Assembly: GCF_020733635.1 (NCBI RefSeq)
Contig: NZ_JAJFZL010000001.1
Coordinates: 682,001-746,000, forward strand
Direction: 5' to 3'
Source: Nocardia spumae
Lineage (GTDB): Bacteria; Actinomycetota; Actinomycetes; Mycobacteriales; Mycobacteriaceae
DNA: 64,000 bases
Made by a program: the position numbers and the translations under genes. The notes below the pieces were generated by a model. The model was given only the letters and a program-made list of their open reading frames with translations, was not told the origin of the DNA and searched no databases. Shown piece by piece: positions 42,859 to 53,655 of this stretch (position 1 is its first letter; each line of letters starts with the position of its first letter).

Positions 42859-43212
42859 TCAGTCGTCGTCGATGCCCTCGTCACCCAGTTCGTTGACCAG
42901 CAGCAGGCCGTCGCGGTGACGCTGCTCCCGATAGGCGGTCCGGCCCACCAGGTGGGCGATGGCGGGTGCGGTGACCAGGGTGAACAGACCCGTCAGCACC
43001 AGCATCCACACGTTGGGATGGCCCCGCAACTGGATCGCGGCGCCGACGAGAATCAGGATGAGCCCGGTGACCTGCGGTTTGGTCGCCGCGTGCATACGGG
43101 TCAGGGTGTCGGGAAAGCGCATGATCGCGATGGCGGCGGTGGCCGCGAGGAAGGCGCCGACCAGGATCACCACATACGAGATCCAGTTCAGGACGGTATC
43201 GACGGCGTTCAT
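42859..43212 (-). CDS. mrpG: Mrp cation/proton antiporter subunit G
   Basis: This 117-aa MnhG/MrpG subunit has three hydrophobic segments and the family's RFPDTLTRMHAATKPQVTGLILILVGA pattern (in two parts). It is the last gene of the Mrp operon. The start overlaps the mrpF stop (ATGA). The acidic tail ends DELGDEGIDDD-like. All subunits are required for activity in known Mrp complexes. Confidence 0.93.
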   Translation of the reverse strand: MNAVDTVLNWISYVVILVGAFLAATAAIAIMRFPDTLTRMHAATKPQVTGLILILVGAAIQLRGHPNVWMLVLTGLFTLVTAPAIAHLVGRTAYREQRHRDGLLLVNELGDEGIDDD

Positions 43213-43469
43213 CGGTCGTCCCGAACCCGGAATCGGGTGACCGCCGCCGAACCGAGGAAACCGACCAGCGCGAGCGCCACGATGCCCGGAACCACCGCGG
43301 TGTCGTCACTGAACGCGGCCCACACCGCCAATCCGGCCGCCGCGATGCACACCAGCGAATCGATGCCGACCACCCGGTCCAGCGTGCCCGGCCCGGCCAG
43401 CACCCGATACGAGGTGAAGACGGCGGCCGCCCCGAGCAGCACCCCCGCCACGATCGCGACGACCGTCAT
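43209..43469 (-). CDS. mrpF: Mrp cation/proton antiporter subunit F
   Basis: This 86-aa subunit has three TM helices, with the GPGTLDRVVGIDSLVC motif between helix 1 and 2 typical of MrpF. ATG 43469 overlaps the stop of a 24-codon reading frame (ATGA). Its stop overlaps mrpG. Without the two mini-frames it would be 138 nt away from mrpE. Confidence 0.93.
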   Translation of the reverse strand: MTVVAIVAGVLLGAAAVFTSYRVLAGPGTLDRVVGIDSLVCIAAAGLAVWAAFSDDTAVVPGIVALALVGFLGSAAVTRFRVRDDR

Positions 43470-43540
43470 GATGCCTCCTGTCGCCGGCGGGACACCCGCG
43501 CCCGGTCGGCCTCGTCAGCGGCTGCGCGAGTATGGCTCAC
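43466..43540 (-). CDS. 24-codon mini-ORF 2 in the mrp operon
   Basis: GTG 43540-43538 opens 24 codons, stopping at TGA 43468-43466. The start overlaps the stop of mini-ORF 1 (GTGA) and the stop overlaps the mrpF start (ATGA). The first 18 residues (VSHTRAAADEADRARVSR) are identical to mini-ORF 1; residues 19-20 are RR instead of KP; both end QEAS. CAGGAGG near the 3' end provides a ribosome site for mrpF. The product is hydrophilic and basic. Expression is inferred from the overlap architecture, and its role may be only to pass ribosomes along the operon. Confidence 0.5.
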   Translation of the reverse strand: MSHTRAAADEADRARVSRRRQEAS

Positions 43541-43621
43541 GATGCCTCCTGTGGTTTGCGGGACACCCGCGCCCGGTCGGCCTCGTCAGCGGCTGCGCGA
43601 GTATGGCTCACGATGCCTCCT
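43470..43621. repeat. 71-bp tandem repeat between mrpE and mrpF
   Basis: A 64-bp block (43487-43550) recurs perfectly at 43558-43621, a shift of 71 bp. The first 11 bp of a further unit are visible at 43470-43480, and the bases between copies differ. Each unit holds one 24-codon mini-ORF with its own AGGAGG. A period of 71 (75 minus the 4-nt overlap) keeps each stop/start overlap in place. Confidence 0.9.
43537..43611 (-). CDS. 24-codon mini-ORF 1 in the mrp operon
   Basis: GTG 43611-43609 overlaps the mrpE stop (GTGA) and opens 24 codons. It ends at TGA 43539-43537, overlapping the start of mini-ORF 2. The tail RKPQEAS resembles the mrpE C-terminus RKPLPEEAS at both the protein and DNA level, which suggests the unit arose by duplicating the end of mrpE. 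AGGAGG lies just ahead of the next start. It differs from mini-ORF 2 at residues 19-20 only. Confidence 0.5.
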   Translation of the reverse strand: MSHTRAAADEADRARVSRKPQEAS

Positions 43622-44129
43622 CCGGTAGTGGTTTGCGTTCGAAGGCGCGGACCAGCAGCCCTTCCAGCCGCCGGGTGATGCGGTAGAACTCCTCGACCGA
43701 GGCGTCGCTGCCGACATCGAGGACGTGTACCCACGCCGTCCCGGTCGCGCGGTCCAGTTCGAGGACCATGGTGCCCGGAATCAGGTTGAGGACGTCGGCG
43801 CACAGCACCAACACCAGATCCGAGCCGATGGCCAGCCGGACCCGCAACACACCGGATACCGGAGCACCGGCCGGCCGCACCGCGAACCAGGCGATCTGGA
43901 AACTGGATTCGATGGCGTAGTACGCGGTCAGGAAGATCACCTGGAGCAGCGGCAGCAGATGCAGCCCACCGGTCACCGGCACCCGCGGCAGCGGCAGCAG
44001 CACCATGATCAGCACGCCGACGACGAGACCGCCGAGCATATTCGCCACGCTGGCATTACCCCACAGCGCGGTGTAGACCACCGCCAGCCAGATCAGCACG
44101 CCGACGCGGACCAAGCGTTCCCGGTTCAT
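43608..44129 (-). CDS. mrpE: Mrp cation/proton antiporter subunit E
   Basis: This 173-aa subunit has N-terminal hydrophobic helices (VGVLIWLAVVYTALWG; LGGLVVGVLIMVLLPLP) and the LNLIPGTMVLELDRATGTAWVHVLDV pattern common to MrpE. The start overlaps the mrpD stop (ATGA). The stop overlaps mini-ORF 1 (GTGA). Confidence 0.93.
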   Translation of the reverse strand: MNRERLVRVGVLIWLAVVYTALWGNASVANMLGGLVVGVLIMVLLPLPRVPVTGGLHLLPLLQVIFLTAYYAIESSFQIAWFAVRPAGAPVSGVLRVRLAIGSDLVLVLCADVLNLIPGTMVLELDRATGTAWVHVLDVGSDASVEEFYRITRRLEGLLVRAFERKPLPEEAS

Positions 44130-52758: not shown

Positions 52759-53655
52759 TCAGCGTCCGCCGGGCCGCCGCAGTCGCAATCGCGATTCGCC
52801 GATGGCGGGTCGGCGCAGTCGCAACCGGGATTCGCCGATCGTGGGCAGCCGCCGGTCCGCACGCCGCTGCGCGCGGCGCTCGGACGGTTTGGCGTGCCAG
52901 GTCTCCGGCCGCGCCGCCACCCAGCGCTGCGAGCGCCACGCGAACGGGATGTGCACCAGGTACAGCCCGATCAGCACCATCAGCAGGATCAGCGGATAGG
53001 TGATCAGCGCGGCCGCGGCCAGGGCGACCAGCACCAGCAGCAGGGCCGCGGCCTGCGGCGCCACCGATACCGATTTCATCGCCAGCGTCGGGATGGTGCT
53101 GACCGCGAGTAGCGCGGCGAAGACCGTCCAGGCGGCGACGACCGGGAAGTTGTCCCACCAGCCGGCGTGGAACTGGCTGTGCAGTGCGATCGGCAGCAGC
53201 GCGATCAGCGCGGCCGCGGGTGCGGGCACCCCGGTGAAATACTCACGCTCCCAATCGGGCCGGGTGTCGTCGTCCATGATCGTGTTGAATCGGGCCAGCC
53301 GCAGCACGATGCTGACCGCGTAGATCAGGGCGATGATCCAGCCCGCGCTGTCCTGCCGGAGCAGGGTCACGTACAGCACCAATGCCGGTGCGACACCGAA
53401 GGATATGGCGTCGGCCAGCGAATCCAGTTCGGCGCCGATCTTGGTGGTCGCCGACAGCATCCGGGCCAGCCGCCCGTCGAGGGTGTCGAGGACGGCGGCC
53501 GCGCCGATCATCGCCAGCGCGATGTCGAGGGAGCCGTCGAGTGCGAACTTCACCGCCGACAATCCCGCGCACAGCGCCAGAATGGTCACGATGCTGGGCA
53601 ACAGGCGGATCGTGCGGCGGCGGCGACCGGGTTCGGTCACGGTGTTCTCGATCAT
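52759..53655 (-). CDS. pssA: CDP-diacylglycerol-serine O-phosphatidyltransferase
   Basis: This 298-aa enzyme makes phosphatidylserine. The CDP-alcohol phosphotransferase motif is complete: Asp57, Asp60-Gly61, Ala64-Arg65, Gly74, Asp78 and Asp82. Multiple TM helices follow. The C-terminal 40 residues are basic, with an 11-residue unit ([11 protein letters not shown]) present twice in tandem. ATG 53655 overlaps the psd stop (ATGA), so pssA and psd form a coupled unit. Confidence 0.94.

Follow-up and report, generated by a model that had tools for sequence, protein, structure and literature searches.

The mini-ORF array between mrpE and mrpF

We analyzed a stretch of 64,000 nucleotides from the Nocardia spumae genome (assembly GCF_020733635.1, contig NZ_JAJFZL010000001.1, positions 682,001 to 746,000; hereafter the window, whose numbering is used for the features below), focusing on a tandem array of two mini open reading frames (mini-ORFs) lying between mrpE and mrpF. 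The mrp operon is found on the minus strand in the order A-C-D-E-unit 1-unit 2-F-G, and the MnhE, MrpF, MrpG, and MrpD-type antiporter subunit proteins are all recognized by Pfam. The stop of mrpE and the start of mrpF are 138 nt apart, and the two 71-nt copies found there are identical at 67 of 71 positions, giving the array a tandem repeats finder score of 277, the highest of the 24 rows in the window. The original prediction described two mini-ORFs of 24 codons linking the two genes, 4-nt overlaps at the A/C, C/D, D/E, and F/G junctions, and an AGGAGG ahead of each start, and the sequence agrees on all three points: each mini-ORF start overlaps the previous stop as GTGA, and the stop of mini-ORF 2 overlaps the mrpF start as ATGA. 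A Pfam search with the mini-ORF peptide gave no match. The features of the array, with the basis of each, are as follows.

43608..44129, minus strand: mrpE, Na+/H+ antiporter subunit E, upstream gene (173 aa; PF01899, E-value 9.1e-31)
43608..43621, minus strand: junction copy 1, AGGAGGCATCGTGA, with the Shine-Dalgarno sequence (SD), spacer, mini-ORF 1 start, and mrpE stop (from the sequence)
43537..43611, minus strand: mini-ORF 1, unit 1 of a dispersed family (GTG start, 24 codons; 91.1 bits with the R1 model described below)
43606..43617, minus strand: 5' arm of hairpin 1 of unit 1, GGCATCGTGAGC, containing the GTG start (family consensus fold)
43579..43590, minus strand: 3' arm of hairpin 1 of unit 1, GCTGACGAGGCC (family consensus fold)
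43558..43578, minus strand: conserved core of unit 1, including hairpin 2, GACCGGGCGCGGGTGTCCCGC (family alignment, consensus fold, and codon test)
43537..43550, minus strand: junction copy 2, again AGGAGGCATCGTGA (from the sequence)
43466..43540, minus strand: mini-ORF 2, unit 2 (GTG start, 24 codons; 86.0 bits with R1)
43535..43546, minus strand: 5' arm of hairpin 1 of unit 2 (unit 1 shifted by 71)
43508..43519, minus strand: 3' arm of hairpin 1 of unit 2 (unit 1 shifted by 71)
43487..43507, minus strand: conserved core of unit 2, including hairpin 2 (unit 1 shifted by 71)
43466..43479, minus strand: junction copy 3, AGGAGGCATCATGA, with the SD and start of mrpF and the mini-ORF 2 stop (from the sequence)
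43209..43469, minus strand: mrpF, downstream gene (ATG at 43469, 86 aa; PF04066, E-value 6e-12)

A dispersed repeat family

The two units are members of a repeat family. The array used as a query retrieved 25 matches in its own genome (G000 in our set, where G-numbers designate genomes and L-numbers loci), and R1, a covariance model derived from an alignment (A1) of 24 of the units in that genome, retrieved 47 matches at E≤0.1, with a single one not below 1e-3, which we grouped into 34 places, several of them in tandem. Within the window, R1 matches only the two units of the array. The units mostly measure 71-77 nt.

The distribution of the family is uneven. R1 matches at E≤1e-4 in 42 of the 59 same-genus genomes, the own genome included; seven of them (G000, G002, G010, G035, G061, G071, and G080) hold 16-45 matches each, and the other 52 hold 0-6. 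Order-wide, at least 29 of 298 genomes match (five belong to the same genus, 23 to family f14, and one to f16; f14 was taken as Pseudonocardiaceae from the organism names in the exact-core scan below), and class-wide at least 5 of 394 do so at 1e-5. Both counts are lower bounds because stricter filters were applied and few candidates were scored, the own genome yielding 16 and 11 matches in them instead of 47. None of the 148 genomes of the sister genus g23 matched R1, which by itself says nothing about homology to the mycobacterial interspersed repetitive units (MIRUs). Named genomes were scanned for the exact 21-base core, and 80 of the 120 stretches were listed. These include Nocardia nova, N. 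veterana, N. africana, N. elegans, N. vermiculata, N. cerradoensis, and others and, beyond Nocardia, Skermania, Amycolatopsis (Pseudonocardiaceae), Saccharopolyspora, Prauserella, and others, together with Antribacter and Myceligenerans from the Promicromonosporaceae. R1 gave 92 matches over the 80 listed loci; since they were selected by an exact core, they do not bear on how conserved the core is. Rfam gave no family match, its sole row (RF03058, 17.5 bits for a cut-off of 36.2) being on the other strand and outside the array. In the literature searched, mostly outside subscription papers, no account of this repeat family in Nocardia or Pseudonocardiaceae was found among the matches listed.

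Placement at gene junctions

The matches form 148 arrays, of which 145 remained without duplicates, 141 were clear of contig edges, and 106 had a resolvable hairpin start. A same-strand frame of 60 or more codons has its stop within the 26 nt covering the 5' arm in 112 of the 141 arrays, versus 240 of 2253 random same-strand positions. Among the 106 arrays, the upstream stop meets the mini-ORF start as NTGA in 70 and as TGATG in eight, and the chain of mini-ORFs ends on a long downstream frame by a -4 overlap in 60 and by a -1 overlap in eight. In the two control frames, such an end was reached in only 1/106 and 11/106 arrays, versus 68/106 in the mini-ORF frame, although the control walks had no hopping from unit to unit, unlike the mini-ORF chain. 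Frame +1 stops early in 95 of the 106 arrays.

The host operons are mutually unrelated. Five of the six downstream proteins scanned with Pfam matched, as an extradiol dioxygenase, an ABC exporter, a response regulator, CrcB, and an ABC permease, the sixth having no match. At mrpE-mrpF itself, 26 of the 29 same-genus loci, own included, are free of units, a single unit is present in G035, and two are present in each of G000 and G010; the N. veterana locus L166 also has two. The relay proposed in the original prediction fits the overlap ends of the whole family, as well as the phase reported below. In contrast, the role specific to Mrp that came with it is unsupported, as the units occur in many unrelated operons and 26 of the 28 other same-genus mrpE-mrpF loci lack them.

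Phase is mostly kept, with no sign of codon selection

To reach the downstream gene in this way, a unit must have a defined phase: a start-to-start distance of 2 mod 3 is what is required to split one -4 or -1 overlap into two alike. We considered 52 single-unit arrays, picking the downstream start regardless of frame, after excluding 48 multi-unit arrays, 26 without a hairpin start, 17 without a downstream start preceded by an SD, and five duplicates or edge cases. The distance was 2 mod 3 in 43 of them (binomial p 3e-13), with lengths of 68, 71, 74, 77, 80, 83, and 86 nt. This count supersedes a mixed one (57/99 at 2 mod 3) that included multi-unit arrays and distant starts. Because the element has a length of 2 mod 3, the mini-ORF extends as far as the native downstream overlap, where it stops.

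The codons tell a different story from the phase. The ratio of nonsynonymous to synonymous changes (N/S) in 54 in-frame units is 3.04 versus 3.00 expected at random (ratio 1.01); no purifying selection on the mini-ORF codons was thus seen over these units. In the core, the mean minor frequencies at codon positions 1, 2, and 3 are 0.024, 0.037, and 0.005, the third position varying least. Therefore, the frame seems to be kept, and the peptide not.

Junction duplication and unit-free, unit-bearing, and scar alleles

A GGAGG-spacer-NTGA junction is often present on both sides of a unit. Comparing the 8 nt of spacer and start on the two sides in 47 single-unit arrays, 5.96 positions agree on average versus 4.44 with swapped loci, a mean that none of 2000 permutations reached, and both sides are identical in 13 of the 47 arrays versus 0.8%.

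Three junctions present unit-free and unit-bearing alleles in close relatives. The junction between two ABC genes was read in 13 genomes. It is free of units in G022, G012, G005, and G006 (this last locus, 66% identical, is perhaps not a true counterpart), bears one unit in G000 and G028, two in G080, G061, G071, and G021, and at least three in G010. In G000, an 18-nt duplication places AGGAGGCGGCGCGATGAG on both sides of the unit; the core count there is two, and the sequence shows one unit, the second apparently being a coincidental similarity within the upstream gene. G002 and G035 display scars, in which the two starts are 29 rather than 74 nt apart; these are still in phase, a 10-codon frame connecting the two overlaps. 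At the second junction, which we take to be hsaD-hsaC, a unit is found in four of 30 loci (G000, G002, G035, and G064) and in none of the other 26; the third is mrpE-mrpF. The unit-free junctions would represent the older state.

Partial units are also observed. In L073, L083, and L086, the arrays finish in a partial unit broken off near GACCGG, at the same point in all three, and the final frame is altered. The downstream genes of L047 and L053 open with a partial copy, GTGAGCGACAATCGCG, and the repeat may supply the protein N-terminus there.

A covarying hairpin over the mini-ORF start

Without any structure being supplied, RNAalifold folds the inner arm of the unit onto the stretch from the SD end through the spacer and start codon to codon 2 (12 bp), and forms a second hairpin, GCGGG-TGT-CCCGC. 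Of the alignment cells, 91.7% are paired, and nine pairs show double changes, with 37 double-change cells versus 12.8 in shuffled alignments. The covariation score was reached by 0/500 shuffles and the number of pair types by 4/500, and pairing drops to 34-48% when the structures are slid along the alignment. When 196 distinct units were compared, 9.92/12 positions paired between an inner arm and the 5' side of its own unit versus 7.92/12 with swapped 5' sides, own arms pairing above the swapped mean in 171 of the units (91/111 in the named set, which was chosen solely by its core). Of 160 well-paired units, 147 have a start codon in the 5' arm, at offset 6 or 7. By eye, the arms also fit the junction in L155, L187, L192, and L203, whose starts are ATGG or GTGG rather than NTGA, and they have changed jointly at seemingly the same insertions (L173 versus L118; L069 versus L177, L199, and L218). 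Among the relatives folded, the hairpin is included in L010 (z -2.22) and L212 (z -3.64), and not in L182.

Comparison with known systems

Repetitive extragenic palindromic (REP) sequences with their RAYT transposases, hairpin repeats derived from the IS200/IS605 insertion sequences, and miniature inverted-repeat transposable elements are small, non-autonomous, hairpin-bearing dispersed repeats. The Nocardia units are likewise small, dispersed, and hairpin-bearing. In contrast, they lie at start/stop overlaps with the frame kept, and no Y1 transposase was found in the genome: PF01797 (HUH) had no match in G000, while the same search was positive in 5/14 control genomes. A Y1 transposase was thus rejected as the mover of the units.

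MIRUs offer the closest description. Supply et al. in 1997 reportedly described them as lacking dyad symmetry. According to a 2025 review, MIRUs are short, apparently mobile repeats inserting at start codons, with an internal ORF coupled at the -4 spacing that likely limits their impact on the gene (PMC12548453); Mycobacterium tuberculosis has units in tandem with lengths of 77 and 53 bp (PMC2453075). The Nocardia units resemble them in several ways. Their size falls within the 40-100 bp MIRU range; they lie singly or in tandem between genes; their small ORF overlaps the neighboring stop and start (60/106 arrays end at -4 and eight at -1, and 70 begin as NTGA); they share the orientation of the flanking genes, as shown by the upstream same-strand stops over the 5' arm (112/141); and unit-bearing and unit-free alleles coexist at ABC-ABC, hsaD-hsaC, and mrpE-mrpF. 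As in the MIRU array of senX3-regX3, an array (L088) precedes a response regulator. In contrast to MIRUs, the Nocardia unit has its own conserved core and the covarying 12-bp hairpin over the start codon. Therefore, the family appears to work like MIRUs and is likened to them by description; it is not filed among them, because the covarying hairpin conflicts with the reported lack of dyad symmetry. A MIRU flank primer, searched exactly in 401 genomes, gave none among the matches listed.

Locus L088 (G000:C1 near 2367568-2367721) consists of two tandem units between a frame that resembles a sensor kinase by eye and the response regulator.

The -4 overlap with ribosome hand-over is by far the commonest spacing among closely spaced ORFs (PMC12548453). 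The mini-ORFs have the same NTGA overlap as such coupled genes. In contrast, a repeat family has brought in their short ORF, which is found again at dozens of loci.

Interpretation

Taken from the sequence comparisons, the array is probably a small mobile, or once-mobile, MIRU-like element that operons tolerate because it relays ribosomes, and the mini-ORFs probably let ribosomes pass to the next gene rather than yield a useful peptide. A dispersed element of 71 bp would insert into ribosome-binding-site/start junctions of co-directional genes, moved by some enzyme, and would bring, or copy from its target, a GGAGG-spacer-NTGA at its 5' side; with this new junction, the upstream gene would stop at a new overlap where the mini-ORF starts. 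A ribosome ending the upstream gene could then initiate again, traverse the element, and initiate once more on the downstream gene. Because the 5' arm of the hairpin contains the mini-ORF start, use of this start would depend on an arriving ribosome, which would melt the hairpin. The selected product would be an open frame with its overlap and not a peptide, and tandem copies, such as the two observed here, may arise by later duplication.

Several observations weigh against this relay and insertion model. Nine of the 52 single-unit arrays are off phase (six at 0 mod 3 and three at 1 mod 3), and the binomial p overstates independence, as units share ancestry and the counts are not independent events. 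No upstream stop of a frame with 60 or more codons was found in 17 of the 106 arrays, and in 11 it lies at other offsets, while at the downstream end 14 chains fuse in frame with the gene, 13 leave a gap, six have no start found, three are broken, and two run off the contig. Frame +2 is also long and open in 59 of the 106 arrays, and openness alone is therefore weak evidence. In the two units of the window, hairpin 1 pairs at 10 of 12 positions, with two mispairs, and their minimum-energy folds (z -1.34 and 0.07) do not contain it. The two sides of the unit have only the SD in common at hsaD-hsaC in G064, with no long duplication, and are alike in little besides the SD at mrpE-mrpF in G035. 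Finally, the unit-free junctions could also be exact losses.

One mode of insertion is possible, although unlikely: the inner arm would act as a guide complementary to the ribosome-binding site and start codon of the target, and the element would insert there, duplicating the junction and gaining a stop/start on both sides. Such an insertion would leave a working stop/start at each end and a reading frame across the element, and the present hairpin would consist of the guide base-paired to the duplicated target. If true, such a choice of harmless sites would be unusual among mobile elements.

Among the alternatives, the idea of purely selfish DNA deserves serious consideration, even if we find it somewhat less than probable. 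Insertions that break coupling would simply have been lost, and the hairpin would serve movement, for example transposase recognition, and not translation. The presence/absence polymorphism and the tandem copies, the expansion restricted to certain lineages (the 16-45 matches of 7/59 same-genus genomes against 0-6 in the other 52), and the fit of the hairpin arms to the local junction are all consistent with it. Nevertheless, the joint arm changes seen by eye at seemingly the same insertions suggest that pairing was kept up after insertion, and the missing Y1 transposase in the own genome does not favor it either.

A regulatory element, tuning downstream expression by its hairpins, an internal promoter, or copy number, is in our view unlikely. 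A covarying hairpin that covers a start codon would suit it, and mycobacterial repeats offer precedents: a shorter repeat length at Mtb-fpg1 lowers transcription (PMC2734929), and regX3 can be expressed from the MIRU-containing senX3-regX3 spacer (PMC4213456). However, hairpin 2 lacks the trailing U tract of an intrinsic terminator, no Rfam family was recovered, and the fold energies of the window copies are ordinary.

A translated family of small proteins, including the Mrp accessory peptide of the original prediction, is very improbable. The frames are mostly open, being broken in only 3/106 arrays, but the random-like N/S, on which the accessory peptide was rejected, and the conservation of the core at third codon positions too argue against it, and the peptide differs by locus, in unrelated operons and with no Pfam match. 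Lastly, a duplication confined to the 3' end of mrpE, with no mobile family involved, is next to impossible: the mini-ORF tails resemble the MrpE C-terminus (QEAS and EEAS), which had been taken as a sign of duplication, because the ribosome-binding-site/stop/start junction is common to both, and the family is also found at 33 other places in the own genome.

Under the reading of a tolerated, ribosome-relaying element, reading frames have apparently been kept for continuity and not for their message, and a repeat has spread them through the operons of Nocardia and Pseudonocardiaceae. Close relatives with zero, one, two, or more units at one junction are natural replicates for the study of translational coupling. 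For annotation, the mini-ORFs of such repeats should not be called small proteins, nor should operons be called broken where they occur.

Elsewhere in the window, at 52770-52852, a 36-bp tandem repeat encodes the repeated C-terminal tail of a 298-aa minus-strand protein, perhaps a phosphatidyltransferase.
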